Origin: Archivesica marissinica
Taxonomy: Eukaryota; Mollusca; Bivalvia; Venerida; Vesicomyidae
Direction: 5' to 3'
DNA length: 64,000 nucleotides
Assembly (NCBI GenBank): GCA_014843695.1
Contig: CM026400.1
Span: forward strand, 13,781,631-13,845,630
Shown here: one piece after another, positions 1 through 64,000 of the stretch
Layout: every line of letters starts with the position of its first letter
Numbering within the stretch: the stretch's first letter is position 1
Program-made: the position numbers and the translations under genes
Notes under the pieces: model-generated
The model's input: only the letters and a program-made list of their open reading frames with translations
What the model was told of the DNA's origin: nothing
The model's database searches: none

Positions 1-805
1 TGTGCACTTCCAATCTATTTCTAACTGATCATAATAGATCAGACAAGGTAAATTAGCGGTGAAAACTTTAAACCTACCCCAGTGTTCACTAATTTCACTA
101 TATCCGTTTTATGTCGCCATATAAATATCATTTTTTAAAGAAATTGGCAATTTTTTCTCCAAAATGACACATGCATCGTCTGCCACGCCAATATATTTAC
201 GAATAAAAATGTCATTATAGTCTCACTGCTCCGTGTTTATGCGTTCCGTCCGTTATTACACACACGGGGTCCTTATGCATAATATCGATTTTCACCGTTT
301 TTTGCCTTCAGGTCCATGTGTTGTCACAGAGGTTCTCCAACTGATATACATGGTTGTGTAAACCTAGTTATTCTCTGTTAAGCACCGTGTGATGTGTTCG
401 ATGGATGGGTCCAGTTACGGTTCTGCACCCAGAGTAATTAGGAGGGGTGACGACTTCTTATGCCCCCATGTGTTTGTCTAAGTGAAACTAAATTAGTGTT
501 TTAGATAGAGTATATAGACAATATGCTCTCCAACAAATGAATTTTGAGTGAAAATGATAAATTAAGCCTATTATTAAAGTAAGTTTTCCTTATTTATATT
601 GTTTTGTTAAAAAAACACTTGCTTACATACTAATGCTCGCGCTGTAGGCAATTTCCACAGGGATATAAATAACAAGTACTAGTGATGTATCACAAATGGT
701 ATCCACCCTCAATTGGAAAACTTTAGAACATAGACACAATCAAGACTCAATAATCATGTTTTTCAATTTTAGAAATTAACTTATTTTTTAAACTTTAATT
801 TTTTA

Positions 806-1034
806 TACAAATTTATTTTAGCTTGATTGCGAAACAAGTTATTTCAACTTATATAAATCACTCTCAAGACCTCATTCCTGATGGAATCCATCGCCACGAG
901 GGAGAGAGAAGAGGAAACGTGGAATTTAAATGCCTTGCCTAAGGGCACAATCGTAACGACTCTAGTGGGGCTCGGACTCCTTTCGCACCTGAAGCGAACG
1001 CGCATCCACTGCACTATCACGACTTCCACATAAA
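806..1034 (-). mobile_element. tRNA-derived SINE, family B
   Basis: Read on the minus strand this begins with a tRNA-like head (GATAGTGCAGTGGATGCG), followed by a box-B-like segment, the core GCCTTAGGCAAGGCATTTAAA, the segment GGATTCCATCAGGAATGAGG, and a tail with AACTTGTTTCGCAATC. The same order occurs at 39966, 40293, 42605, 52785 and around 53250. It is absent from the right arm, so it was inserted after duplication or lost there. Confidence 0.8.
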
Positions 1035-1320
1035 CTTGATTTTACAACGATTGCGAAGCAAGTTTTAACAACATATATTAATCGCTCTTGTTGGTGCGGA
1101 TGAAAGCTTAAATGTGGTCATTAGTGTGGGAGGAAACCAGAGCACTCAGTCCGGGTTCGATCCTGGGACCGGGAAGTATATGAGATGGTATGGTGGTCGC
1201 CAGATCGGATAGGTGTTTTTTCCCCGAGTATTCCGGTTTACGCTTCCATCTGCGCCAATGAGAGTGATTAATATAAGTTGTTAAAACTTGCTTCGTTGTC
1301 ATTGTAAAATGAATAAAGTT
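1035..1320. mobile_element. Two family-C SINE fragments, head to head
   Basis: 1035-1140 is the reversed 3' part of a family-C SINE (reverse complement of TTCATCCGCACCAACAAGAG). 1141-1320 is a forward copy carrying the box-B-like GGGTTCGATCCTGG, then GATGGTATGGTGGTCGCCAG, and the tail GAGTGATTAATATAAGTTG followed by TTGTAAAATGAATAAAG. It sits directly beside the family-B SINE, forming a SINE cluster found only in the left arm. Confidence 0.65.
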
Positions 1321-1495
1321 TGTAAAATGAAGTTTACAGTTAAATAAAACTTATTCACATAAATAAATTTATACACACTCTGCCATAGTTTAAGAAAATT
1401 ATGTATCAGTATGTCATGGAGAAAATTGAAATTAGTTTTTACCTTCCGATTTAAGGACAAGTTGAAGCCTGAACTATACACAATGCAGGGATCAT

Positions 1496-2036
1496 TCTAG
1501 AGGGCGATGTGGGCCAAAATTGTCGCCCTAGGGACCCTGACTTCGCCCTCTGGGGGCCCCACTTCTCCATAAAAAAAAAAAAAAAAAAAAAAAAAATGTT
1601 TTTGGTTTTTACAATTTTCAAACAAAATTGTGTCTAGTAAGATACACTGGCCCATTATAAATCACTTCTATTCAAATGTTGTATTTAATGGTGGTACTGT
1701 GCATTTTAACCCTATTTTGCAGAAGTATATTAAAGAACACCATTTAAGGAAGCGATCACGCGCTTTCTCACAAACATTCTGACATGGAGAAAATCCTTGA
1801 TTTTACAACGTTCAAAACATCACACAAGTGAATAACAATAAGTTTCAATGTTCTAACTCCTGTATCTGCAAAGTTAATGAAGATACATCGCCATCTGTTA
1901 TGCAACAAACTGAACACGGTTCGTCTACACCCGCACTCAAACCTTTTTTTTTAGGAAGAAGTGGGGCCCCAGAGGGCGAAGTTAGGGTCCCTAGGGCGAT
2001 AAATTCGCCCTACATCGCCCTCTAGAATGATCCCTG
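1496..2036. mobile_element. hAT-like MITE, composite of two opposed copies
   Basis: The element starts with CAGGGATCATTCTAGAGGGC at 1496 and ends with the inverted form ...CTAGAATGATCCCTG at 2036. The body at 1620-1780 (the GTAAGATACACTGGCCCATT region) is the standard internal part of the family; complete copies are at 41239-41522 and 49277-49611. About 135 bases at 1800-1935 have no counterpart in the right arm. A long poly-A run lies at 1569-1596. Confidence 0.75.
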
Positions 2037-2149
2037 CTAGCTTCCGATTTAATCCATCTGTTCTTGTATATTAATGTTACAACATGATGTAAATATTGAT
2101 AAATAAATTATCTTTACATCATATATCATAACTAACTTCTATTTTCACT

Positions 2150-2345
2150 TTCGTTTGCACAGATAAAAGGGTATATTTGTGTTGAGGAAACCAGATTATC
2201 CAGAATTTACCACCACCTGTCCGATTTGTAGGCCACCGTACCATGTCACATAGTTCCCGTTTCGAGGATCAAACCCGTGTTACATTTGTGAGAAGCAAGC
2301 TTGCTAACGGTTAATCACTGCGCTAATCAGACAGCCATATTTTGC
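2150..2345 (-). mobile_element. tRNA-derived SINE, family C
   Basis: Reverse orientation: the tRNA-like head (TTAGCGCAGTGATTAACCG) reads leftward from about 2335, followed by a box-B-like GGTTTGATCCTCG and the GGTACGGTGGCCTACAAATC body. The same element lies at the mirror position in the right arm (24136-24312), so it predates the arm duplication. It lies about 115 bases upstream of the HEPN start codon. Confidence 0.75.
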
Positions 2346-2456
2346 CAATGGAATCATTGATGATATGCTTGGTAGTTTCAGAGTTGGCAATCTACGGCAT
2401 TTTCTCTCTAAGTGAGCCTGCATTGTTCATATTGTACTATGTGAAGACCAAACAAG

Positions 2457-3110
2457 ATGTCGGACAACATTGAGAGCTCCTCCTACTTCCATAGGGTCAT
2501 TTCATTGGTCATTGATGTGGGAACGCAGACTTTGCGAGACAAATTCTACTCCATAGTGCCAAAAGCATATGTTCAAACATATTTCTCAGAAACGAGGATT
2601 AAGTCAGAATTTAAAAAGCTTAAGGCTAAGAAACGACTTACAAATGTACAGTTTGATAAGGTAACTGATTCCCCGGATCCAGATTCTTACGATATATCTC
2701 TGCTCATCACCTTACTATCCAATCAGCAAGTGTGTCGAATACCTGCACCTCTGAATGGATGGGCACATATTCCACCCGACCCGAATGACCACACTGTAGG
2801 AGCTGACCTACTGCGCCTGCGTGATGTAAGGAACGAGATCATAGGTCATCCGGCTAATGCTCAATTAAATGAAGCAGACTTTCAGAGGTTATGGGTAGAT
2901 ATTGAGACTGTACTGCTCAGAATCGCCGGCAGTATTAATGTGATGGAGGAAGCAAAGATTAAAGAGATGGTGCAAGATGCCAGGATCCGGATGCTGGAGC
3001 CGTTGCATGACCGAGAGAAGAAGCTGCTGCAGTGGCACAAAGAAGATACTGAGAAATACCAAGAACAGTTGACAGAAGTGCAGAACTCCTTAGATATGCT
3101 TCACATAAAG
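2457..3110 (+). CDS. DZIP3-like HEPN-domain protein, first exon (copy 1)
   Basis: The exon encodes 218 residues beginning MSDNIESSSYFHRVIS and ends at ...CATAAAG|GTATGG, a good 5' splice site in phase 0. Residues about 10-165 resemble the HEPN domain of DZIP3 (hRUL138) type: an N-terminal VIDVGTQTLR segment, DSYDISLLITLL, the NGWAHIPPDPND loop, and RNEIIGH, which fits the HEPN Rx4-6H motif. Residues about 170-218 are charged and likely coiled coil. In bivalves this domain is often the N-terminal module of large multidomain, possibly immune, proteins; the function here is inferred only. No downstream exon was found before the gap: the intron runs into a 28-bp minisatellite and unrelated repeats, and the exon-2 counterpart seen in copy 2 is missing. 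It may be an orphan exon, a truncated duplicate, or a haplotig fragment. The Met at 2457 matches copy 2. Confidence 0.75.
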
Positions 3111-3287
3111 GTATGGTTTAAATTCTCTTCATGTTGTGTAAATCCATACCAGGCACAGAATGACATAATTCTCAAGAAAAGCTGCATATTATGCCGTGTT
3201 ACTCTCTTTTTTGTATGTATACATACATGTACATATGTTAAACTATATAAAACAAAATTACCGAGGAAACGTAAGTTAAAGGAGGGA

Positions 3288-5950
3288 CACTGTTAACCTG
3301 TGATATATAGAGGAACACTGTTAACCTGTATATATCACAGGTTGACAGTGTTCCTCTATATACCACAGGTTGACAGTGTTCCTCTATATACCACAGGGTG
3401 ACAGTCCCTCTATATAGCACAGGGTGACAGTCCCTCTATATAGCACAGGGTGACAATGTTCCACTATATATCACAGGTTGACTGTGTTCCTCTATATATC
3501 ACAGGTTGACAGTCCCTCTATATAGCACAGGGTGACAATGTTCCACTATATATCACAGGTTGACTGTGTTCCTCTATATACCACAGGTTGACAGTGTTCC
3601 TCTATATACCACAGGGTGACAGTGTTCCTCTATATACCACAGGTTGACCGTGTTCCTCTATATACCACAGGTTGACAGTGTTCCTCTATATACCACAGGG
3701 TGACAGTGTTCCTCTATATACCACAGGTTAACAGTGTTCCTCTATCCATTACAGGTTAACAGTGTTCCTCTATATACCACAGGTTAACAGTGTCCCTCTA
3801 TATACCACAGGTTGACAGTGTTCCTCTATATATCACAGGTTGACAGTGTCCCTCTATATACCACATATTGACAGTGTTCCTCTATATACCACAGGTTAAC
3901 AGTGTTCCTCTATATACCACATGTTGACAGTGTTCCTCTATATACCACAGGGTGACAGTGTTCCTCTATATACCACAGGTTAACAGTGTTCCTCTATCCA
4001 TTACAGGTTTGACAGTCCCTCTATATATCACAGGTTAACAGTGTCCCTCTATATATCACAGGTTGACAGTGTCCCTCTATATACCACAGATTGACAGTGT
4101 TCCTCTATATACCACAGGTTAACAGTGTTCCTCTATATACCACAGGTTGACAGTGTTCCTCTATATACCACAGGGTGACAGTGTTCCTCTATATACCACA
4201 GGTTAACAGTGTTCCTCTATCCATTACAGGTTTGACAGTCCCTCTATATATCACAGGTTAACAGTGTCCCTCTATATATCACAGGTTGACAGTGTCCCCC
4301 TATATACCACAGGTTGACAGTGTCCCTCTATATACCACAGGTTGACAGTGTCCCTCTATATAGCACAGGTTGACAGTCCCTCTATATACCACAGGTTCAC
4401 TGTGTTCCTCTATATACCACAGGTTGACAGTGTTCCTCTATATATCACAGGTTGACTGTGTTCCTCTATATACCACAGGTTAATAGTGTCCCTCTATATA
4501 TCACAGGTTAACAGTGTTCCTCTATATACCACAGGTTGACAGTGTTCCTCTATATATCACAGGGTGACTGTGTTCCTCTATATACCACAGGTTGACTGTT
4601 CCTCTGTATATCACAGGTTAACAGTGTTCCTCTATATACCACAGGTTGACATTGTTCCTCTATATATCACAGGGTGACTGTGTTCCTCTATATACCACAG
4701 GGTGACAGTGTTCCTCTATATACCACAGGTTAACAGAGTTCCTCTAGATATCACAGGTTGACAGTGTTCCTCTATATATCACAGGTTAACAGTGTCCCTC
4801 TATATACCACAGGTTAACAGTGTCCCTCTATATACCACAGGTTGACAGTGTTCCTCTATATACCACAGGTTAACAGTGTTCCTCTATATACCACAGGTTA
4901 ACAGTGTTCCTCTATATACCACAGGTTGACAGTGTTCCTCTATATACCACAGGGTGACGGTGTTCCTCTATATACCACAGGTTAACAGTGTTCCTCTATC
5001 CATTACAGGTTTGACAGTCCCTCTATATATCACAGGTTAACAGTGTCCCTCTATATATCACAGGTTGACAGTGTCCCTCTATATACCACAGATTGACAGT
5101 GTTCCTCTATATACCACAGGTTAACAGTGTTCCTCTATATACCACAGGTTGACAGTGTTCCTCTATATACCACAGGGTGACAGTGTTCCTCTATATACCA
5201 CAGGTTAACAGTGTTCCTCTATCCATTACAGGTTTGACAGTCCCTCTATATATCACAGGTTAACAGTGTCCCTCTATATATCACAGGTTGACAGTGTCCC
5301 CCTATATACCACAGGTTGACAGTATCCCTCTATATACCACAGGTTGACAGTGTCCCTCTATATACCACAGGTTGACAGTGTTCCTCTTTATACCACAGGT
5401 TGACAGTGTTCCTCTTTATACCACAGGTTGACAGTGTTCCTCTATATAGCACAGGTTGACAGTCCCTCTATATACCACAGGTTCACTGTGTTCCTCTATA
5501 TACCACAGGTTGACAGTGTTCCTCTATATATCACAGGTTGACTGTGTTCCTCTATATACCACAGGTTAATAGTGTCCCTCTATATATCACAGGTTAACAG
5601 TGTTCCTCTATATATCACAGGGTGACTGTGTTCCTCTATATACCACAGGTTGACTGTTCCTCTGTATATCACAGGTTGACAGTGTTCCTCTATATACCAT
5701 AGGTTAACAGAGTTCCTCTATATATCACAGGTTGACAGTGTTCCTCTATATATCACAGGTTAACAGTGTCCCTCTATATACCACAGGTTGACAGTGTTCC
5801 TCTATATACCATAGGTTAACAGTGTTCCTCTATATACCACAGGTTAACAGTGTTCCTCTATATACCACAGGTTGACAGTGTTCCTCTATATACCACAGGG
5901 TGACAGTGTTCCTCTATATACCACAGGTTAACAGTGTTCCTCTATCCATT
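3288..5950 (+). repeat. 28-bp minisatellite in the HEPN intron (left arm)
   Basis: About 95 units carry the core CTCTATATACCACAG|GTTAACAGTG, with variants of 25-28 bases. Each unit has a pyrimidine-rich stretch followed by CAG|GT, that is, a 3' splice-site-like sequence in gene orientation. The first two units (about 3287-3330) are inverted relative to the rest. A higher-order period of about 1002 bases is visible: the CTCTATCCATTACAG variants at about 3991 and 4214 recur at about 4993 and 5216. The array ends abruptly in the 494-bp repeat. Confidence 0.95.
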
Positions 5951-9220: not shown

Positions 9221-10220
9221 NNNNNNNNNNNNNNNNNNNNNNNNNNNNNNNNNNNNNNNNNNNNNNNNNNNNNNNNNNNNNNNNNNNNNNNNNNNNNNNN
9301 NNNNNNNNNNNNNNNNNNNNNNNNNNNNNNNNNNNNNNNNNNNNNNNNNNNNNNNNNNNNNNNNNNNNNNNNNNNNNNNNNNNNNNNNNNNNNNNNNNNN
9401 NNNNNNNNNNNNNNNNNNNNNNNNNNNNNNNNNNNNNNNNNNNNNNNNNNNNNNNNNNNNNNNNNNNNNNNNNNNNNNNNNNNNNNNNNNNNNNNNNNNN
9501 NNNNNNNNNNNNNNNNNNNNNNNNNNNNNNNNNNNNNNNNNNNNNNNNNNNNNNNNNNNNNNNNNNNNNNNNNNNNNNNNNNNNNNNNNNNNNNNNNNNN
9601 NNNNNNNNNNNNNNNNNNNNNNNNNNNNNNNNNNNNNNNNNNNNNNNNNNNNNNNNNNNNNNNNNNNNNNNNNNNNNNNNNNNNNNNNNNNNNNNNNNNN
9701 NNNNNNNNNNNNNNNNNNNNNNNNNNNNNNNNNNNNNNNNNNNNNNNNNNNNNNNNNNNNNNNNNNNNNNNNNNNNNNNNNNNNNNNNNNNNNNNNNNNN
9801 NNNNNNNNNNNNNNNNNNNNNNNNNNNNNNNNNNNNNNNNNNNNNNNNNNNNNNNNNNNNNNNNNNNNNNNNNNNNNNNNNNNNNNNNNNNNNNNNNNNN
9901 NNNNNNNNNNNNNNNNNNNNNNNNNNNNNNNNNNNNNNNNNNNNNNNNNNNNNNNNNNNNNNNNNNNNNNNNNNNNNNNNNNNNNNNNNNNNNNNNNNNN
10001 NNNNNNNNNNNNNNNNNNNNNNNNNNNNNNNNNNNNNNNNNNNNNNNNNNNNNNNNNNNNNNNNNNNNNNNNNNNNNNNNNNNNNNNNNNNNNNNNNNNN
10101 NNNNNNNNNNNNNNNNNNNNNNNNNNNNNNNNNNNNNNNNNNNNNNNNNNNNNNNNNNNNNNNNNNNNNNNNNNNNNNNNNNNNNNNNNNNNNNNNNNNN
10201 NNNNNNNNNNNNNNNNNNNN
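9221..10220. other. Scaffold gap, exactly 1000 N
   Basis: A run of exactly 1000 N is a nominal gap of unknown real size. The sequence left of it (34-bp units) and right of it (30-bp units) belong to different repeats, so adjacency and orientation of the two contigs are not demonstrated by the sequence itself. Confidence 1.
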
Positions 10221-10345
10221 ATAATGGGTGACCTGAAACAACTACTGTTTATAATGGGTGACCTCAAACAACTACTGTTTATAATGGGTGACCTCAAACA
10301 ACTACTGTTTATAATGGGTGACCTGAAACAACTACTGTTTATAAT
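10221..10345. repeat. 30-bp minisatellite at the right gap edge
   Basis: Four units of ATAATGGGTGACCT(G/C)AAACA plus ACTACTGTTT, beginning immediately after the gap. The left extent is unknown. Confidence 0.95.
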
Positions 10346-10527
10346 GAGTTACCCATTTGGTTAGACATTGTCTTGAGGAAGAGTTTAATGTCATCATACT
10401 GTTTATTCACCATTTGTTGTGTTTGACACATTTTGTGTAACTCAACATGCATTCCATTCAGCTTCTCCTGCATCTATCAGCAAGCAGAAATATAACAACA
10501 TTCATAGTTATACATTGTTACTTGTAT

Positions 10528-15131: not shown

Positions 15132-15308
15132 TTACAGCAATTAATCTTGATAATTACGGGTCAAATATGAAACCAACGAGTCATTACATACAAACAAATA
15201 TGTGCTTATTTTTTCATCAATATATTTTCTTGAAGTTTGTTCAAAACATTATCCACCCCCCTCCTCCGAATACTGTTAGGTTTAGAGGGATTTCACTGTA
15301 TCTATACT

Positions 15309-17178
15309 TCTTCTTCTTCTTGTCGTTCGCGAATCACATGGACAAGCCGGCAGCAAACACGAAATGGGCCGTCCTCCTCAGATCCTCCCGGCAGCCATGT
15401 AACTTCGTCTGGAGAGAAGTATCTGTTGCCCAGGTTGTTTTCCTCAGCCCATGAAGATTGGGACACTCCTGGAGGATGTGTTCTGCAGTCTGGTCCCCTA
15501 TTTTGCAGCTGCAGGTAGTTGATGGAGCTAGTCCAAGCTTCCGACACATATGGAAGTTCAGGCGGTTATACCCTGTTCTAAGCCGGAATATCGTGACTTG
15601 CTCCTGTCTGGTGAGAAGGTGGTAGTCATCCTTCTCGACTGTTGGCTTTGATGCAGATTTGATTATGGTGCATTTCTCCTTGTAAGTCAAATCTTTGTCT
15701 GGTTGCCTCTCGGTAGAACCTTGCTTGGCAAGCTGGTCAGCGGCTTCATTGCCAGGAATGCCTATGTGTGCAGGTACCCACTGGAGGACAGTTCTTTTAG
15801 ATACGCTGACTTTTCGAAGGGCTTCCATCAGGTGGGGTTCTTTGTTGTTAGACAGGGCATCCAGAACTGAGAGCGCATCAGTCAGGAAGACAACCTGGGC
15901 ACACTCTACAGTGTTGTGTACTAGAGATGCTGCTGTTTCAAGGGCCTGTACTTCTGCCCCATAGTTGCTGCAGTGTACTCCAGTAGGTAGAGCAACTGAC
16001 TGTGTGTGTCCATCTGGGTGTCGGACATACACGCCTGCTCCTCCGTTTGCTACTGCTTTTGTGGCTGAACCATCTGTGTAGACTTGTAGCCATGCTTCTC
16101 CAGGATAACTCTTGTCGATGTGTGCTAGTGTGAGGGCACGTTTGACGTCATCATGTTGTCTATCTCTGGATGTCATGTATGGGATTGTACTGCAGATGGT
16201 AACCTTGGATTCATCGCTAGTCAACCATGGCTTGGATAGAAATGGCGTTGGAGGCAATGTCTTGGCTGGGAGATGGCTGGTGTGCTTTCGAGCAAGCTTC
16301 TTGGACTGGTGGATGAAACTGCTTCGCTTTAGACGATTCTTCGTTAGTGCCTCAACTCTCTGCTTCATCGGTTGTTCTTCCTGACATCGAAACTTCTCTG
16401 TCTGTAGAAGAATTCTTGTGTCGCGACGTTCTTGCAGTGGCTGGATGGAAGTAATTTTCTCCATGGCCTTGATTGGAGTGCTCTTCATTGCACCTGTGAT
16501 CAGCCTGAGAGCCTTGTTCTGAACCTTGTCGAGTGTCTGTTGGTTGGTCTTGGCTGATGATGTCCAGGCGGTGGATCCATATTCCAGGTGAGGCCTGACC
16601 ACACCTTGGTATATAGTCTTCAGGATGTGATCATTGGCACCCCATGTGGTGCCAGCAAGCTTCCGAAGGATTGCAAGCTTGCGCTTGGCTTTGGCCTCTG
16701 CTTTCTGGATATGTGGCTTCCATGTCTGCCGTCTGTCAAATGTCACCCCCAAGTATGTTGGCTCGTTGTCCGTCTTCAAGGCAGTTCCACCGACTTTGAT
16801 GGTTCCAGCTTTCTGTTTGGTGGAAAGTGTGAAGAGTGTGGTTGACGACTTCTCCTTATTAATAGAGATGCACCAGTCTTCTGCCCATGCTGTGAGCTTG
16901 TCTGCGGCCATCTGCATTCTGTATGTGGCAGTCGTTGCATATTCTTCAACACACCACATGACCAAGTCGTCAGCATAGAGTGCTGCTTTGATACCATGTG
17001 GCAGCTCTGCAAGCAAGTCATCGATGAAGATGAGGAACAGCGTAGGCGAGATCACTCCTCCTTGAGGAACACCATGTCGGATGAGGAATTTCTTGCTCTT
17101 CTGGTTGTCAACAAGTACTCTGGCTCTGCGATTGTGTAGGAAGGATTTGGTCCATCGGAGCACTGTATTATACAAAAT
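15309..17178 (-). mobile_element. 5'-truncated LINE with reverse transcriptase and RNase H
   Basis: On the minus strand a single open frame of about 615 codons ends at 15334. In order it has a late-RT segment (RWTKSFLHNRRARV, HGVPQGGVISPTLF), the catalytic AALYADDLVMW, PTYLGVTFD, the thumb region, an RNase H domain (YTDGSA, YGAEVQALE, LTDALSVLDAL and WVPAHIGIPGNEAADQLA, carrying the expected D-E-D-D type residues), and a final Cys/His motif near CSCKIGDQTAEHILQECP. RNase H at this place is typical of the I and related clades. It is followed by a short GAA-repeat 3' tail (CTTCTTCTTCTTCTTG on + at about 15309). The endonuclease and first half of the RT are missing: the element starts directly at the 19-bp minisatellite at 17178. 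The frame is otherwise intact, so the insertion is probably young. Confidence 0.9.
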
Positions 17179-19224
17179 CTCACCTGGATTACAAAATCTC
17201 ACCTGGATTACACAATCTCACCTGGTTTACAACATCTCACCTGGATTACACAATCTCACCTGGTTTACAAAATCTCACCTGGATTACACAATCTCACCTG
17301 GTTTACAAAATCTCACCTGGATTACACAATCTCACCTGGTTTACACAATCTCACTTGGTTTACAAAATCTCACCTGGATTACACAATCTCACCTGGTTTA
17401 CCACAATCTCACATGGTTTACACAATCTCACCTGATTTACCACAATCTCACATGGTTTACAAAATCTCACCTGGATTACACAATCTCACCTGGTTTAGAC
17501 CATCTCACCTGGATTACAAAATTTCACCTGGTTTACACAATTTCACCTGGATTACACAATATCACCTGATTTACAAAATCTCACCTGGATTACACAATTT
17601 CACCTGGATTACACAATTTCACCTGGATTACACAATATCACCTGATTTACCACAATCTCACATGGTTTACACAATATCACCTGATTTACCACAATCTCAC
17701 CTGGTTTACACAATCTCACCTGGTTTACACAATCTCATCTGGTTTACACAATATCACCTGATTTACCACAATCTCACCTGGTTTACACAATCTCACCTGG
17801 TTTACACAATATCACCTGATTTACCACAATCCCACATGGTTTACACACTCTCACCTGGTTTACACAATCTCATCTGGTTTACACAATCTCACCTGGTTTA
17901 CACAATCTCACCTGATTTACCACAATCTCACCTGATTTACCACAATCTCACATGGTTTACACAATCTCACCTGGATTACAAAATCTCACCTGGATTACAC
18001 AATTTCCCCCCAGATTACACAATTTCACCTGGATTACACAATATCACCTGATTTACCACAATCTCACATGGCTTACACAATCTCACATGGTTTACACAAT
18101 CTCATCTGGTTTACACAATATCACCTGGTTTACACAATCTCACCTGGATTACAAAATCTCACCTGGTTTACACCATCTCACCTGATTTACCACAATCTCA
18201 CATGGTTTACACAATATCACATGGTTTACACAATCTCACCTGGATTACAAAATCTCACCTGGTTTACACCATCTCACCTGATTTACCACAATCTCACATG
18301 GTTTACACAATCTCACCTGGTTTACACAATCTCACCTGGTTTACACAATATCACCTGATTTACCACAATCTCACATGGTGTACACAATCTCACCTGGTTT
18401 ACACCATCTCACCTGATTTACCACAATCTCACATGGTTTACACAATCTCACATGGATTACACAATCTCACCTGGTTTACACCATCTCACCTGATTTACCA
18501 CAATCTCACCTGATTTACCACAATCTCACATGGTTTACACAATCTCATCTGGTTTACACCATCTCACCTGATTTACCACAATCTCACATGGTTTACACAA
18601 TCTCACATGGTTTACACAATCTCACCTGGTTTACACAATCTCACCTGGATTACACAATCTCACCTGGTTTACACCATCTCACCTGATTTACCACAATCTT
18701 ACCTGGTTTACACAATCTCACCTGGTTTACACAATATCACCTGATTTACCACACTCTCACATGGTTTACACAATCTCACCTGGTTTACACAATATCACCT
18801 GATCTACCACAATCTCACATGGTTTACACAATCTCACCTGATTTATCACAATCTCACCTGGATTACACAATATCACCTGATTTACCACAATCTCACCTGG
18901 TTTACACAATATCACCTGATTTACCACACTCTCACCTGGTTTACACAATCTCACCTGGTTTACACAATATCACCTGATTTACCACAATCTCACATGGTTT
19001 ACACAATCTCACCTGGTTTACACAATATCACCTGATTTACCACAATCTCACATGGTTTACACCATCTCACCTGGTTTACACCATCTCACCTGGTTTACAT
19101 AATTTCACCTGGATTACACAATATCACCTGATTTACCACAATCTCACCTGGTTTACACAATATCACCTGATTTACCACAATCTCACATGGTTTACACAAT
19201 CTCACCTGGTTTACACAATCTCAC
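17179..19224 (-). repeat. 19-20-bp minisatellite carrying the 5' splice site of HEPN exon 2
   Basis: About 105 units. In the gene (minus) orientation the unit is GTGAGATTGTGTAAACCAG, so each unit boundary reads CCAG|GTGAGA, a consensus 5' splice site. The first unit is contiguous with the last bases of the probable exon at 19225-19359, whose end (AGATTGTGTAATCCAG) is itself almost a unit. Variants have TTTACCA or ATTACA. The far end abuts the LINE at 17178. Confidence 0.95.
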
Positions 19225-19359
19225 CTGGATTACACAATCTTGTCTGGCTATACTACTAAAGTTCTGCACAAGGTTGCTGACTTGAGACTGCAGTGAGGAG
19301 AAAGCATCATCTGATCTGGATGCATCGGTCTCATCTGTTGAACGAGGAATTTTGTTAAC
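19225..19359 (-). CDS. Probable second exon of the HEPN gene (copy 2)
   Basis: On the minus strand 135 bases (45 codons) are open in phase 0, matching the phase-0 donor of exon 1 at 23367. The acceptor is CTCTATCCATTACAG|GTTAAC and the donor is ATCCAG|GTGAGA. The peptide starts VNKIPRSTDETDASRS and includes the helical-looking FSSLQSQVSNLVQNFSSIA; I recognise no domain. It is the only non-repeat sequence between two minisatellites, whose units replicate its two splice sites. The alternative is that it is non-coding remnant sequence; matching phase and both splice sites argue for an exon. No later exon is visible to the left before the LINE. Confidence 0.6.
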
Positions 19360-22300
19360 CTGTAATGGATAGAGCAACACTGTCAACCTGTGGTATATAG
19401 AGGGACACCGTTAACCTGTGGTATAGAGAGGGACATCTGTCACCCTGTAATGGATAGAGCAATACTGTCAACCTGTGGTATATAGAGCAACACTGTCAAC
19501 CTGTGGTATATAGAGGGACACTGTCAACCTGTGATATATAGAGGGACACCGTTAACCTGTGGTATATAGAGGGACACTGTCAACCTGTGGTATATAGAGG
19601 AACACTGTCACCCTGTGGTATATAGAGGGACATCTGTCATCCTGTAATGGATAGAGCAATACTGTTAACCTGTGGTATATAGAGGAACAATGTCACCTTG
19701 TGGTATATAGAGGGACATCTGTCATCCTGTAATGGATAGAGCAATACTGTTAACCTGTGGTATATAGAGGAACACTGTCAATCTGTGGTATATAGAGGGA
19801 CACTGTCAACATGTGGTATAAAGAGGAACACTGTTAACCTGTAATGGATAGAGGAACACTGTTAACCTGTGGTATATAGAGGGACACTGTCAACCTGTGG
19901 TATAAAGAGGAACACTGTTAACCTGTAATGGATAGAGGAACACTGTTAACCTGTGGTATATAGAGGGACACTGTTAACCTGTGGTATATAGAGGAACACT
20001 GTCAACCTGTGGTATATAGAGGGACACTGTTAACCTGTGGTATATAGAGGAACACTGTCAACATGTGGTATATAGAGGGACACTGTTAACCTGTGGTATA
20101 TAGAGGAACACTGTCAACCTGTGGTATATAGAGGGACTGTCACCCTGTGCTATATAGAGGAACTGTCACCCTGTGGTATATAGAGGAACACTGTCAACCT
20201 GTGCTATATAGAGGGACACTGTCAACCTGTGGTATAAAGAGGAACACTGTTAACCTGTAATGGATAGAGGAACACTGTTAACCTGTGGTATATAGAGGGA
20301 CACTGTTAACCTGTGGTATATAGAGGAACACTGTCAACCTGTGGTATATAGAGGGACACTGTTAACCTGTGGTATATAGAGGACCACCGTCAACCTGTGG
20401 TATATAGAGGGACACTGTTAACCTGTGGTATATAGAGGAACACTGTTAACCTGTGGTATATAGAGGAACACTGTTAACCTGTGGTATATAGAGGAACACT
20501 GTCAACCTGTGATATATAGAGGAACACTGTCAACCTGTGATATATAGAGGAACACAGTCACCCTGTGGTATATAGAGGAATACTGTTAACCTGTGGTATA
20601 TAGAGGAACACTGTCACCCTGTGCTATATAGAGGAACTGTCACCCTGTGGTATATAGAGGAACACAGTCAACCTGTGATATATAGAGGAACACTGTTAAC
20701 CTGTGATATATAGAGGAACACTGTTAACCTGTGATATATAGAGGGACTGTCACCCTGTGGTATATAGAGGAACACTGTCACCCTGTGGTATATAGAGGAA
20801 CACTGTTAACCTGTGGTATATAGAGGAACACTGTCACCCTGTGGTATATAGAGGAACACTGTTAACCTGTGGTATATAGAGGAACACTGTTAACCTGTGG
20901 TATATAGAGGAACACTGTCAACCTGTGATATATAGAGGAACACTGTCAACCTGTGATATATAGAGGAACACAGTCACCCTGTGGTATATAGAGGAATACT
21001 GTTAACCTGTGGTATATAGAGGAACACTGTCAACCTGTGGTATATAGAGGAACACTGTCAACCTGTGGTATATAGAGGAACACTGTTAATCTGTGGTATA
21101 TAGAGGGACACTGTTAACCTGTGATATATAGAGGAACACTGTCAACCTGTGGTATATAGAGGAACACTGTTAACCTGTGGTATATAGAGGAACACTGTTA
21201 ACCTGTGGTATATAGAGGAACACTGTTAACCTGTGGTATATAGAGGAATACTGTTAACCTATGGTATATAGAGGGACTGTCACCCTGTGGTATATAGAGG
21301 AATACTGTTAAACTGTGGTATATAGAGGAACACTGTTAACCTGTGGTATATAGAGGAACACTGTTAACCTATGGTATATAGAGGAACACTGTCAATCTGT
21401 GGTATATAGAGGAACACTGTCAACCTGTGATATATAGAGGGACTGTCAACCTGTAGTATATAGAGGGACTGTCACCCTGTGGTATATAGAGGAACACTGT
21501 TAACCTGTGCTATATAGAGGGACTGTCAACCTGTGCTATATAGAGGGACTGTCAACCTGTGCTATATAGAGGGTCTGTCACCCTGTGCTATATAGAGGAA
21601 CACTGTTAACCTGTGCTATATAGAGGGACTGTCAACCTGTGCTATATAGAGGGACTGTCACCCTGTGGTATATAGAGGAACACTGTTAACCTGTGCTATA
21701 TAGAGGAACACTGTCAACCTGTGATATATAGAGGAACACTGTCAACCTGTGATATACAGAGGGACTGTCACCCTGTGGTATATAGAGGAATACTGTTAAC
21801 CTGTGGTATATAGAGGAACACAGTCAACCTGTGGTATATAGAGGGACTGTCACCCTGTGGTATATAGAGGAATACTGTTAACCCATGGTATATAGAGGAA
21901 CACAGTCAACCTGTGGTATATAGAGGAACACTGTCACCCTGTGGTATATAGAGGAACACTGTCACCCTGTGGTATATAGAGGAACACTGTCACCCTGTGC
22001 TATATAGAGGAACACTGTTAACCTGTGATATATAGAAGACCACTGTTAACCTGTGGTATATAGAGGAACACTGTTAACCTGTGGTATATAGAGGAACACT
22101 GTTATCCTGTGGTATATAGAGGAACACAGTCAACCTGTGATATATAGAGGAACACTGTTAACCTGTGATATATAGAGGAACACAGTCAACCTGTGATATA
22201 TAGAGGAACACTGTTAACCTGTGATATATAGAGGAACACTGTTAACCTGTGATATATAGAGGAACACTGTCACCCTGTGGTATATAGAGGAACACTGTTA

Positions 22301-23195
22301 ACCTGTGGTATATAGAGGAACACTGTCAACCTGTGATATATAGAGGAACACTGTCAACCTGTGGTATATAGAGGAACACTGTTAACCTGTGATATATAGA
22401 GGAACACTGTTAACCTGTGATATATAGAGGAACACTGTCACCCTGTGGTATATAGAGGAACACTGTTAACCTGTGATATATAGAGGAACACTGTTAACCT
22501 GTGGTATATAGAGGAACACTGTTAGCCTGTGATATATAGAGGAACACTGTTAACCTGTGATATATAGAGGAACACTGTCACCCTGTGGTATATAGAGGAA
22601 CACTGTCACCATGTGCTATATATAGGAACACTGTCACCCTGTGGTATATAGAGGGACACCGTTAACCTGTGGTATATAGAGGAACACTGTTAACCTGTGG
22701 TATATAGAGGAACACTGTCACCCTGTGGTATATAGAGGAACACTGTTAACCTGTGATATATAGAGGAACACTGTTAACCTGTAGTATATAGAGGGACTGT
22801 CACCCTGTGGTATATAGAGGAACACTGTCAACCTGTGGTATATAGAGGAACACTGTTAACCTGTGATATATAGAGGAACACTGTCACCATGTGCTATATA
22901 GAGGAACACTGTTAACCTGTGATATATAGAGGGACTGTCACCCTGTGGTATATATAGGAACACTGTCAACCTGTGGTATATAGAGGAACACTGTCACCCT
23001 GTGCTATATAGAGGAACACTGTTAACCTGTGATATATAGAGGAACACTGTCACCCTGTGCTATATAGAGGAACACTGTTAACCTGTGATATATAGAGGGA
23101 CTGTCACCCTGTGGTATATAGAGGAACACTGTCAACCTGTGGTATATACAGGTTAACAGTGTTCCTCTATATATCACAGGTTAACAGTGTCCCTC
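19360..23195 (-). repeat. 28-bp minisatellite carrying the 3' splice site of HEPN exon 2 (right arm)
   Basis: About 135 units of the same family as 3288-5950, in the mirror orientation. In gene sense each unit reads CTCTATATACCACAG|GTTAACAGTG. The last unit is the real acceptor of the exon at 19359, in the CTCTATCCATTACAG form that recurs in the array. At 23145-23195 the orientation flips for about two units, exactly as in the left arm. Confidence 0.95.
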
Positions 23196-23366: not shown

Positions 23367-24020
23367 CTTTAGGTGAAGCATATCTAAGGAGTTCTGCACT
23401 TCTGTCAACTGTTCTTGGTATTTCTCAGTATCGTCTTTGTGCCACTGCAGCAGCTTCTTCTCTCGGTCATGCAACGGCTCCAGCATCCGGTTCCTGGCAT
23501 CTTGCACCATCTCTTTAATCTTTGCTTCCTCCATCACATTAATACTGCCGGCGATTCTGAGCAGTACAGTCTCAATATCTACCCATAACCTCTTAAAGTC
23601 TGCTTCATTTAATTGAGCATTAGCCGGATGACCTATGATCTCGTTCCTTACCTCACGCAGGCGCAGTAGGTCAGCTCCTACCGTGTGGTCATTCGGCTCG
23701 GGTGGAATATGTGCCCATCCATTCACAGGTGCAGGTATTCGACACACTTTCTGATTGGATAGTAAGGTGATGAGCAGAGATATATCGTAAGAATCTGGAT
23801 CCGGGCAAACAGTTACCTTCTCAAACTGTACATTTGTAAGTCGTTTCTTAGCCTTAAGCTTATTAAATTCTGACTTAATCCTCGTTTCTGAGAAATATTT
23901 TTGAACATATGCTTTTGGCACTATGGAGTAAAATTTGTCTCGCAAAGTCTGCGTTCCCACATCAATGACCAATGAAATGACCCTATGGAAGTAGGAGGAG
24001 CTCTCAATGTTGTCCGACAT
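23367..24020 (-). CDS. DZIP3-like HEPN-domain protein, first exon (copy 2)
   Basis: It has the same 218-codon length, start and phase-0 donor (CTAAAG|GTATGA) as copy 1, with about a dozen amino-acid differences, most conservative (for example VQKYF for VQTYF, PEPND for PDPND, LREVRNEIIGH for LRDVRNEIIGH). The HEPN Rx4-6H motif is kept in both, no stop or frameshift is present, and changes are spread along the exon. This looks like selection after duplication, or allelic variation, rather than decay. The intron to the left is the 28-bp minisatellite and leads to the probable exon 2 at 19225-19359. Transcription converges on that of copy 1. The remaining exons are not visible, so the full domain architecture is unknown. 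Confidence 0.75.
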
Positions 24021-24135
24021 CTTGTTTGGTCTTCACATAGTACAATATGAACAATGCAGGCTCACTTAGAGAGAAAATGCCGTAGATTGCCAACTCTGAA
24101 ACTACCAAGCATATCATCAATGATTCCATTGGCAA

Positions 24136-24312
24136 AATATGGCTGTCTGATTAGCGCAGTGATTAACCGTTAGCAAGCTTGCTTCTCACAAATGTAACCC
24201 GGGTTTGATCCTCGAAACGGGAACTATGTGACATGGTACGGTGGCCTACAAATCGGACAGGTGGGGGTAAATTCTGGATAATCTGGTTTCCTCAACACAA
24301 ATATACCCTTTT
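24136..24312 (+). mobile_element. tRNA-derived SINE, family C
   Basis: Mirror copy of the element at 2150-2345: head TTAGCGCAGTGATTAACCG, box-B-like GGGTTTGATCCTCG, body GGTACGGTGGCCTACAAATC. Its presence in both arms dates it before the duplication. Confidence 0.75.
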
Positions 24313-24451
24313 ATCTGTGCAAACGAAAGTGAAAATAGAAGTTAGTTATGATATATGATGTACTTATGATGTAAAGATAATTTATTTATCAATATTTACA
24401 TCATGTTGTAACATTAATATACAAGAACAGATGGATTAAATCGGAAGCTAG

Positions 24452-24787
24452 CAGGGATCATTCTAGAGGGCGATGTGGGGCGAATTTGTCGCCCTAGGGA
24501 CCCTAACTTCGCCCTCTGGGGGCCCCACTTCTCCCTAAAAAAAATTGTCTCCATTTTCAGAATGTTTGGGAGAAGTGAGAAAGCGCATGATCGCTTCCTT
24601 AAATGGTGTTCTTTAATATACTTCTGCAAAATAGGGTTAAAATGCACAGTACCACCATTAAATACAACATTTGAATAGAAGTGATTTATAATGGGCCAGT
24701 GTATCTTACTAGACAAAATTTTGTTTGAAAATCATAAAAAACAAAAAATAATTACGTTTTTAAAAAATTGTTTAGGGAGAAGTGGTA
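24452..24787 (+). mobile_element. hAT-like MITE, rearranged copy
   Basis: Begins CAGGGATCATTCTAGAGGGC and the GCCCCACTTCTCCCT segment, then switches to the inverted order of the family body (GGGAGAAGTGAGAAAGCGCA, then AATGGGCCAGTGTATCTTAC) and ends at TTTAGGGAGAAGTGG. It is thus an internally inverted copy, sitting at the place of the 1496-2036 composite in the left arm. Confidence 0.75.
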
Positions 24788-59414: not shown

Positions 59415-62400
59415 TTATACCTTACCTCTGTGATTCCTTGCCCCATCCTCTGTGTGATTCCTCTCCTTTCCACTACAATTCCTCACCTTTCCACTCTGTC
59501 ATTCCATGCCTTTCCACTCTGTCATTCCATGCCTTTCCTCTGTGATTCACTGCCCATCCGCCTCTGTGTGATTCCTCTCCTTTCCACTATGATTCCTCGC
59601 CTTTCCACTCTGTCATTCCTTGCCTTTCCTCTGTCATTCCTTGCCTTTCCACTCTGTCATTCCTTGCCTTTCCTCTGTCATTCCTTGCCTTTCCTCTGTC
59701 ATTCCTTGCCTTTCCTCTGTCATTCCTTGCCTTTCCTCCGTCATTCCTTGCCTTTCCACTCTGTCATTCCTTGCCTTTCCTCTGTCATTCCTTGCCTTTC
59801 CTCCGTCATTCCTTGCCTTTCCACTCTGTCATTCCTTGCCTTTCCTCTGTCATTCCTTGCCTTTCCTCTGTCATTCCTTGCCTTTCCTCTGTCATTCCTT
59901 GCCTTTCCTCCGTCATTCCTTGCCTTTCCTCCGTCATTCCTTGCCTTTCCTCTGTCATTCCTTGCCTTTCCTCTGTCATTCCTTGCCTTTCCTCCGTCAT
60001 TCCTTGCCTTTCCTCTGTCATTCCTTGCCTTTCCTCTGTCATTCCTTGCCTTTCCTCCGTCATTCCTTGCCTTTCCACTCTGTCATTCCTTGCCTTTCCT
60101 CTGTCATTCCTTGCCTTTCCTCTGTCATTCCTTGCCTTTCCACTCTGTCATTCCTTGCCTTTCCTCTGTCATTCCTTGCCTTTCCTCTGTCATTCCTTGC
60201 CTTTCCTCTGTCATTCCTTGCCTTTCCTCCGTCATTCCTTGCCTTTCCACTCTGTCATTCCTTGCCTTTCCTCTGTCATTCCTTGCCTTTCCTCCGTCAT
60301 TCCTTGCCTTTCCACTCTGTCATTCCTTGCCTTTCCTCTGTCATTCCTTGCCTTTCCTCTGTCATTCCTTGCCTTTCCTCTGTCATTCCTTGCCTTTCCT
60401 CCGTCATTCCTTGCCTTTCCTCCGTCATTCCTTGCCTTTCCTCCGTCATTCCTTGCCTTTCCTCCGTCATTCCTTGCCTTTCCTCCGTCATTCCTTGCCT
60501 TTCCTCTGTCATTCCTTGCCTTTCCACTCTGTCATTCCTTGCCTTTCCTCTGTGATTCCTTGCCTTTCCACTCTGTCATTCCATGCCTTTCCTCTGTGAT
60601 TCATTGCTCATCCGCCACTATGTGATTCCTCTCCTTTCCACTACGATTCCTCGCCTTTCCACTCTGTCATTCATTGCCTTTCCTCTGTGATTCCTTGTCC
60701 CATCCTCTGTGTGATTCCTCTCCTTTCCACTATGATTCCTTGCCTTTCCTCTGTGATTCCTTGCCTTTCCACTCTGTCATTCCATGCCTTTCCTCTGTGA
60801 TTCATTGCTCATCCGCCACTATGTGATTCCTCTCCTTTCCACTATGATTCCTTGCCTTTCCTCTATGATTCCATGCCTTTCTGCTGTGATTCCTCTCCTT
60901 TCCACTATGATTCCTTGCCTTTCCACTATGATTCCTTGCCTTTCCTCTGTGATTCCTTGCCTTTCTGTGTGATTCCTCTCCTTTCCACTATGATTCCTTG
61001 CCTTTCCTCTGTGATTCCTTGCCTTTCCACTCTGTCATTCCATGCCTTTCCACTCTGTCATTCCTTGCCTTTCCTCTGTGATTCCTTGCCTTTCCACTCT
61101 GTCATTCCATGCCTTTCCTCTGTGATTCATTGCTCATCCGCCACTATGTGATTCCTCTCCTTTCCACTACGATTCCTCGCCTTTCCACTCTGTCATTCAT
61201 TGCCTTTCCTCTGTGATTCCTTGTCCCATCCTCTGTGTGATTCCTCTCCTTTCCACTATGATTCCTTGCCTTTCCTCTGTGATTCCTTGCCTTTCCACTC
61301 TGTCATTCCATGCCTTTCCTCTGTGATTCATTGCTCATCCGCCACTATGTGATTCCTCTCCTTTCCACTATGATTCCTTGCCTTTCCTCTATGATTCCAT
61401 GCCTTTCTGCTGTGATTCCTCTCCTTTCCACTATGATTCCTTGCCTTTCCACTATGATTCCTTGCCTTTCCTCTGTGATTCCTTGCCTTTCTGTGTGATT
61501 CCTCTCCTTTCCACTATGATTCCTTGCCTTTCTGCTGTGATTCCTTGCCCCATCCTCTGTGTGATTTCTTGCCTTTCCACTATGATTCCTTGCCTTTCCA
61601 CTATGATTCCTTGCCTTTCTGCTGTGATTCCTTGCCCCATCCTCTGTGTGATTCCTCTCCTTTCCACTATGATTCCTTGCCTTTCCACTATGATTCCATG
61701 CCTTTCTGCTGTGATTCCTTGCCCCATCCTCTGTGTGATTCCTCTCCTTTCCACTATGATTCCTTGCCTTTCCACTATGATTCCTTGCCTTTCTGTGTGA
61801 TTCCTTGCCCCATCCTCTGTGTGATTCCTTGCCTTTCTCTGTGATTCCTTGCCTTTCCTCTGTGATTCCTTGCCCATCCTCTGTGTGATTCCTCTCCTTT
61901 CCACTATGATTCCTTGCCTTTCCACTATGATTCCTTGCCTTTCTGTATGATTCCTTGCCTTTCCACTATGATTCCTTGCCTTTCTGCTGTGATTCCTTGC
62001 CCCATCCTCTGTGTGATTCCTCTCCTTTCCACTATGATTCCTTGCCTTTCCACTATGATTCCATGCCTTTCTGTGTGATTCCTCTCCTTTCCACTATGAT
62101 TCCTTGCCTTTCCACTATGATTCCATGCCTTTCTGTGTGATTCCTTGCCTTTCCACTATGATTCCTTGCCTTTCCACTATGATTCCATGCCTTTCTGTGT
62201 GATTCCTCTCCTTTCCACTATGATTCCTTGCCTTTCCACTATGATTCCATGCCTTTCTGTGTGATTCCTCTCCTTTCCACTATGATTCCTTGCCTTTCCA
62301 CTATGATTCCATGCCTTTCTGTGTGATTCCTTGCCTTTCCACTATGATTCCTTGCCTTTCTGCTGTGATTCCTTGCCCCATCCTCTGTGTGATTCCTCTC

Positions 62401-64000
62401 CTTTCCACTATGATTCCTTGCCTTTCTGTATGATTCCTTGCCTTTCCACTATGATTCCTTGCCTTTCTGTATGATTCCTTGCCTTTCTGCTGTGATTCCT
62501 TGTCCCATCCTCTGTGTGATTCCTCTCCTTTCCACTATGATTCCTTGCCTTTCTGTATGATTCCTTGCCTTTCTGCTGTGATTCCTTGCCTTTCCACTAT
62601 GATTCCTTGCCTTTCCACTATGATTCCATGCCTTTCTGTGTGATTCCTCTCCTTTCCACTATGATTCCTTGCCTTTCCACTATGATTCCATGCCTTTCTG
62701 TGTGATTCCTTGCCTTTCCACTATGATTCCTTGCCTTTCTGTATGATTCCTTGCCTTTCCACTATGATTCCTTGCCTTTCTGTATGATTCCTTGCCTTTC
62801 CACTATGATTCCTTGCCTTTCCACTATGATTCCATGCCTTTCTGTGTGATTCCTTGCCTTTCCACTATGATTCCTTGCCTTTCTGTATGATTCCTTGCCT
62901 TTCCGCTATGATTCCTTGCCTTTCCACTATGATTCCTTGCCTTTCTGTATGATTCCTTGCCTTTCCGCTATGATTCCTTGCCTTTCCGCTATGATTCCTT
63001 GCCTTTCCGCTATGATTCCTTGCCTTTCCGCTATGATTCCTTGCCTTTCCTCTATGATTCCTTGCCTTTCTGCTGTGATTCCTTGTCCCATCCTCTGTGT
63101 GATTCCTCTCCTTTCCGCTATGATTCCATGCCTTTCCACTCTGTGATTCCTTGCCTTTCTGTGTGATTCCTCTCCTTTCCACTATGATTCCTTGCCTTTC
63201 TGTATGATTCCTTGCCTTTCCACTATGATTCCTTGCCTTTCTATGATTCCTGCCTTTCTGTGTGATTCCTTGCCTTTCCACTATGATTCCTTGCCTTTCT
63301 GTATGATTCCTTGCCTTTCCGCTATGATTCCTTGCCTTTCCACTATGATTCCTTGCCTTTCTGCTGTGATTCCTTGCCCATCCTCTGTGATTCCTCTCCT
63401 TTCCGCTATGATTCCATGCCTTTCCACTCTGTGATTCCTTGCCTTTCCACTATGATTCCTTGCCTTTCCATCTGTGATTCCTTGCCTTTCTGTGTGATTC
63501 CTCTCCTTTCCGCTATGATTCCATGCCTTTCCACTCTGTGATTCCTTGCCTTTCTGTGTGATTCCTCTCCTTTCCACTATGATTCCTTGCCTTTCCACTC
63601 TGTGATTCCTTGCCTTTCTGTGTGATTCCTCTCCTTTCCACTATGATTCCATGCCTTTCCACTCTGTGATTCCTTGCCTTTCTGTGTGATTCCTCTCCTT
63701 TCCACTATGATTCCATGCCTTTCCACTCTGTGATTCCTTGCCTTTCTGTGTGATTCCTCTCCTTTCCACTATGATTCCATGCCTTTCCACTCTGTGATTC
63801 CTTGCCTTTCTGTGTGATTCCTCTCCTTTCCACTATGATTCCTTGCCTTTCTGCTGTGATTCCTTGCCCCATCCTCTGTGTGATTCCTCTCCTTTCCACT
63901 ATGATTCCTTGCCTTTCTGTATGATTCCATGCCTTTCTGTGTGATTCCTCTCCTTTCCACTATGATTCCTTGCCTTTCCACTCTGTCATTCCATACCTTT
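59415..64000. repeat. 4.6-kb minisatellite running off the right edge
   Basis: Units of about 17-22 bases around TGATTCCTTGCCTTTCC, in two zones. 59600-60570 is dominated by TGTCATTCCTTGCCTTTCC with CTCTG or ACTCTG linkers; 60570-64000 by CACTATGATTCCTTGCC and CTGTGTGATTCC. A 526-base higher-order repeat is clear: the sequence from 60784 recurs from 61310. Open frames up to 389 codons here are products of the array, not genes. Confidence 0.97.

Follow-up and report, generated by a model that had tools for sequence, protein, structure and literature searches.

The DNA analysed here is a stretch of 64,000 nucleotides (nt) from contig CM026400.1 of the bivalve Archivesica marissinica, referred to as the window, and coordinates are positions within it unless stated otherwise. 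On its minus strand lies a gene whose first exon encodes a HEPN_DZIP3 domain (PF18738; Pfam, E 6.6e-21) and whose second exon stands between two long minisatellites, a 28-bp array on the acceptor side and a 19-bp array on the donor side. Along the minus strand, exon 1 comes first and is followed by the 28-bp array, exon 2 and the 19-bp array; an insertion and AT-rich repeats precede exon 3, behind which come a 30-bp array and an assembly gap. The features are given below; repeats were called with Tandem Repeats Finder (TRF), and the vertical bar marks the splice junction.

23367-24020, minus strand: exon 1, 654 nt, 218 codons, donor AAG|GTATGA, phase 0 (Pfam, sequence, homologs)
23143-23195, no strand assigned: inverted stub, roughly two 28-bp units long, where the array faces exon 1 (TRF; opposite-strand blastn rows)
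19360-23195, minus strand: array of 28-bp units (GTTAACAGTGTTCCTCTATATACCACAG) that resemble acceptors (pyrimidines, CAG|G), with the real acceptor as its last unit
19225-19359, minus strand: exon 2, 135 nt, 45 codons, phase 0-0
17171-19224, minus strand: array of 19/20-bp units (GTGAGATTGTGTAAACCAG) that resemble donors, either CAG|GTGAGA or a weaker version of it; the repeat extends 16 nt into exon 2
15302-17160, minus strand: insertion directly past the 19-bp array, with an open reading frame (ORF) at 15334-17202 and the 8-base repeat ATACAGTG on its flanks; the site is empty in the second copy of the gene
10353-10473, minus strand: exon 3, ending in phase 1, with acceptor GATAG|ATGCAG and donor ATGG|GTAACT (from a tblastn search with the Mercenaria tail)
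10221-10352, minus strand: third array, 30 bp, beginning at the exon-3 donor and interrupted by the assembly gap 9221-10220
2457-5945, plus strand: a second, inverted exon 1 at 2457-3110 and, behind it, a 28-bp array at 3282-5945; no exon 2

Exon 2 is open in frame 0 only. The insertion is presumably of the long interspersed nuclear element (LINE) type, as judged by eye from a motif in its ORF. Tandem repeats occupy 25,159 of the 64,000 bases in 36 blocks (TRF), so that an array near an exon is unremarkable in this window; it is the building of arrays from an exon's own borders that is remarkable.

Array units and the borders of exon 2

Both arrays consist of exon 2's own borders. This had been proposed in a preliminary description of the same DNA, whose array positions and sizes are also borne out: TRF places 107.5 copies of a 19-bp unit at 17171-19240 and 136.2 copies of a 28-bp unit at 19369-23152. 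Counting the real junctions, here and in the junction counts that follow, there are 137 junctions in the acceptor-side array of the window and 107 in the donor-side array. Two further copies of exon 2, called second and third copy here, are found in the genome, and in all three copies the authentic border stands at the array end.

On the donor side, AG|GT is kept in 80/107 junctions of the window (191/289 in the second and 103/155 in the third copy), and the nine bases of the real donor, CAG|GTGAGA, recur in 57/107 (118/289 and 58/155, respectively). The inclusion of about 16 bases of the exon end in this repeat, noted before, holds exactly: the last 16 bases of exon 2 precede 8, 8 and 7 junctions in the window, second and third copy, in a count that used a longer exon prefix and hence 108 donor-side junctions in the window. 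On the acceptor side, AG is kept in 131/137 junctions of the window, 467/485 of the second and 376/392 of the third copy. This array does hold variants of the real acceptor, as first described; the CCATTACAG form occurs in seven window junctions, the real one among them and all at most 895 nt from exon 2, and the exact 23-mer of the real acceptor has a single occurrence in the window copy, against three in either of the others.

An addition to the preliminary description is the resemblance of the acceptor-side unit to the exon start. The 28-bp consensus agrees with the start of exon 2 at 13 of 16 bases in the window and at 12 of 16 in the second copy (binomial p 1.5e-5 and 1.3e-4), with 10/16 as the best of 741 control 16-mers. 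The repeat unit thus spans the exon-intron border on either side of exon 2, with 16 exact exon bases in eight junctions at the donor and with these partial matches at the acceptor.

Among the listed whole-genome matches, the 28-bp repeat is found only at the copies of this gene and on contig C1693 (11,270 bp), which consists of it entirely, and matches of at least 85% to the 19-bp repeat are found only at this gene. Arrays that resemble the 19-bp repeat less closely were inspected at five other places, picked by similarity to the query without regard to exons; their main units measure 10-21 bp, and two of them are donor-like (CCAGGTAATA, ATAGGTGAGA). Long arrays with donor-like units were observed elsewhere in the genome (L050 1-1680; L052 960-2614). 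The exon-3 donor marks the start of the 30-bp array both in the window (10221-10352) and in the second copy (C15:25214834-25216115). The sequence GAG|GTCACC, judged by eye to be a weak donor, is found in 31/40 of its matched units, and no exon sequence is visible in this array.

Exon 2 itself, previously called probable, is very likely genuine and conserved, because the predicted proteins of relatives cross its joins without a gap. The joined protein of exons 1 and 2 matches three Mercenaria mercenaria proteins, of which two cover 99% of it with 56-58% identity and the third covers 83%, stopping at the exon-1 border. A four-sequence alignment as query adds a Ruditapes philippinarum protein (54% over 100%). 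P0001 and P0004 cross both joins of exon 2 (1/2 and 2/3) without a gap, and P0002 does so at the 1/2 join, which argues that exon 2 was not derived from the arrays. It starts with V-N here and with V-D in all three relatives whose sequence extends that far. Three related ORFs (P0005-P0007) continue for 1-4 residues beyond V, the residue at the exon-1 border, as if they were reading into an intron; P0003 stops at the border itself. This hints at an older intron at this position. Exon 3 was found by tblastn with the Mercenaria tail (E 0.017 in the window, 4e-4 in the second copy), and its acceptor GATAG|ATGCAG is lost in the second copy, in which ATGCAG|GAG would take its place. Exon 4 was located with the Ruditapes protein in the second copy only and was not found in the window or in the 20 kb before it. 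The remainder of that protein looks Death-like; Pfam reported no Death-type domain there at E 0.1.

Splice choice and reading frame

The expectation of more than a hundred decoys on each side was confirmed by the 131 acceptors that keep AG and the 102 usable donors of the window (467 and 256 in the second copy). Exon 2 stays open from the innermost acceptor only, and exon 3 is read through from the innermost donor only. From every outer acceptor, the frame closes before exon 2 ends (130/130 in the window, 466/466 in the second copy), and outer donors lead to a stop inside the extension in 100/101 and 254/255 cases; the remaining one in each copy, at +19, is open through the extension and meets a stop in exon 3. 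The displacement of the outer donors by 19 or 20 nt breaks the frame, just as the preliminary description had it. A transcript spliced at any of these numerous decoys would be spoiled.

By motif, the real sites do not stand out. With a donor scoring table, 57/107 junctions (real donor included) score at least as high as the real donor, and the pyrimidine count of the real acceptor is equalled or exceeded in 103/131 acceptors. The AG|GT core, whose donor-side counts are given above, is also present in 93/131 usable acceptor-side units of the window and in 403/467 of the second copy. Acceptor-donor pairs that define exons of at most 250 nt number 18 in the window and 17 in the second copy. The RNA around exon 2 folds no better than its shuffles (z 0.96; 87/100 shuffles fold at least as well).

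Selection against the decoys was considered and rejected, as the variable columns of the 19-bp unit are not concentrated in the donor core when the column table is judged by eye: of the columns below 0.9 conservation, 2/5 fall into the core in the window and 3/6 in each other copy, the core comprising 9/19 columns. Branch-point-like yTnAy motifs upstream of the acceptors were counted without a control and are not used as evidence.

Copies of the gene

The second complete copy of the gene lies at C15:25.214-25.245 Mb, 11 Mb away, and has 485 acceptor-side and 289 donor-side junctions. Its exons 1-4 (C15:25244806-25244153, 25230274-25230140, 25216255-25216132 and 25214420-25214280) join in phase. 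The third copy of exon 2, at C15:25.253 Mb between two gaps, has 392 and 155 junctions; it is 94.9% alike to the second copy over 14.2 kb, with an identical exon 2, and may represent the other haplotype. Array lengths therefore differ among the copies (137/107, 485/289 and 392/155), with loci and alleles inseparable in this comparison and the third copy cut by gaps.

Exon 2 of the window is 97.8% identical in the two further copies. Exons 1 and 2 agree at 97.7-97.8% between the window and the second copy; the figure is 97.6% where intron 1 starts, 94.9-96.6% for the remaining flanks and about 86-90% for the longest alignments of the arrays. Both copies share the initial two to three and the final units of the 19-bp array, together with the final unit of the 28-bp array. 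In the second copy, three of seven exon borders lie at most 20 bp from an array end, and at least three did so in 34 of 100,000 random placements, for which the 20-bp limit was set after looking and which could cover exons. The distant HEPN paralogs (20/24 matches, 32-38% identity) were rejected as a source of an un-expanded border, as two-strand tblastn of 20 loci with 1.5 kb on each side gave no exon 2.

The preliminary description had held that arrays without an exon between them, if found in a related genome, would speak against its proposal. Within this genome, the inverted copy at 2457-5945 does combine exon 1 and a 28-bp array without exon 2, and we read it as a truncated duplicate. Its exon 1 is identical to exon 1 at C15:25.244 Mb, with 99.9% identity over the 2.4 kb before it; this segment (window 1-3110) would reflect either a recent duplication or a misplaced haplotype. 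Between the exon 1 at 23367-24020 and that at C15:25244153-25244806, 13 of 15 differing codons alter the amino acid, which may reflect relaxed or diversifying selection. Upstream of exon 1 (24021-24700), pieces recur many times nearby in both orientations, possibly as parts of a short transposable element. A 21-bp CT-rich array of 214 copies with a strong strand skew occupies 59420-64000 and reaches the window end. Elsewhere, a COX1 fragment in invertebrate mitochondrial code on the large contig C18 (C18:57969556-57970428; L060) is a probable nuclear mitochondrial insert; among 120 listed of 5,240 matches to it, Xylophaga is the best with a name, at 71%.

Origin of the arrays

We consider it likely that the two arrays are border-seeded minisatellites of the ‘mirage’ type, near neutral and tolerated since the innermost sites win. 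From the observed anatomy, the conservation of exon 2 in predicted proteins, the frame consequences and the copy-specific array lengths, we infer the following order of events. Exon 2 would be an old coding exon, both intron-exon borders of which were duplicated in tandem and grew into minisatellites; the 28-bp unit would comprise the 3′ end of intron 1 and about 16 bases resembling the exon start, and the 19-bp unit about 16 bases of the exon end and the donor. The array interiors were presumably lengthened via slippage or unequal exchange, and the innermost acceptor-donor pair would be chosen most likely through proximity and exon definition. As a correct message needs this pair, the arrays would be removed with the introns and thus be close to neutral.

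Known systems provide parallels for each border taken singly. In amphioxus, ‘mirage’ minisatellites (Adh3, globins, troponin C, PGBD5) are tandem repeats across either intron-exon border, many of their units carry AG or GT, and splicing is reported to be undisturbed (PMC3087553, PMC3902484). They share with the present locus the repeats over the exon-intron border at the array end, but the cases covered in these two papers comprise 2-7 units at different borders of different exons, whereas the present bivalve has 107-485 junctions, and a single exon is affected at either end. For human IFI6 (6-16), the array reportedly begins at the exon end. Two downstream units of this donor minisatellite are used as donors (PMC4526556; PMC2572611); it resembles our locus in having donor-type units at an exon end and differs in being confined, as far as described, to the donor side with two units in use, whereas the units here are predicted donors by motif. 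Intron gain via duplication of AG/GT sites (Rogers, cited in PMC3087553) has the presumed start from a border duplication in common, but no new intron is seen here. The preliminary description knew of no exon with both borders amplified: one-border arrays are established by the mirages and IFI6, while no two-sided case on one exon and no mirage in a bivalve was found in our literature search, outside of which lay most subscription literature including the Adh3 and 6-16 originals, so that an earlier two-sided report may exist.

Several points weigh against border seeding. The acceptor-side unit matches the exon at only 12-13 of 16 bases, so this array could have overwritten the border instead of growing from it, and the silence of 57/107 donors equal to the real one over nine bases is assumed. 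The whole-genome search with the Mercenaria protein for an un-expanded border found exon 2 at the three places of this gene only. The proteins of the relatives are gene predictions, P0001 being partial. Donor-like tandem repeats, sought as CAGGTGAG occurring three times with short gaps, show no clear excess across the genome: 5,009 matches stand against 4,318 in a backward-read control, and the matches cluster by array.

If intronic satellites had run into exon 2 and replaced its original borders, the exon would have taken its splice sites from the repeats. The real acceptor as one unit variant among many, the imperfect acceptor-side match and the V-N start against V-D in the relatives fit this course of events, but the joins are gapless with respect to the relatives, 16 bases of the exon recur exactly in the donor-side unit, and among the listed matches close copies of either repeat away from the gene are confined to C1693; we regard such overwriting as unlikely. 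A misassembly of array lengths or copies, or decay of the window copy to a pseudogene, appears very unlikely to us. The gap 9221-10220, the exon 4 missing from the window and the 20 kb before it, the many replacement codons of exon 1 and the gap-flanked, perhaps allelic exon 2 at C15:25.253 Mb would suit it. Against it, the same design is present at two loci 11 Mb apart, with the insertion site filled in one and empty in the other, exons 1-3 are open in both copies, and the reading frame of the second copy continues in phase over exons 1-4.

The paired arrays could also form a splice-choice device, in which length-set use of outer units tunes the amount of intact HEPN protein per copy or AG|GT units allow stepwise removal of the introns, but we give this idea as a whole little credence. 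Its first form, a functional unproductive splicing, would let some transcripts use outer sites and hit a stop, so that they are degraded or yield a short HEPN-only protein, with array length setting the dose. Use of any outer site would indeed end in a stop, outer sites are no worse by motif (57/107 donors, 103/131 acceptors), and array lengths vary among the copies; yet stops are expected from any intron sequence, and the low-conservation columns of the unit are not concentrated on the donor core, which leaves this form improbable. In its second form, recursive or dual-specific splicing, AG|GT units would serve in turn as acceptor and donor and the introns would leave in whole-unit steps. AG|GT is frequent in the units of both arrays in the window and the second copy, and tandem dual-specific AGGT sites are spliced in this way in human UBC (PMC10809524). 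As described, those sites delimit coding ubiquitin units, whereas the tandem AG|GT units here are intronic and out of frame; the donor-side units have a poor pyrimidine tract, and GTTAAC/GTTGAC of the acceptor-side units is a poor donor by eye. We hold recursive splicing to be highly improbable.

Border-seeded growth would extend the mirage-type minisatellites from lancelets to a bivalve, in a two-sided form and at a hundred-fold scale. More than 100 acceptor-like units compete at exon 2, and if splicing is accurate, motif strength cannot be the reason, because 57 donors in the window and 118 in the second copy, the real ones included, are identical over nine bases. In that case the locus would be a natural test of proximity and exon definition in choosing the right site among look-alikes, and of how far border duplications may grow before a gene suffers.

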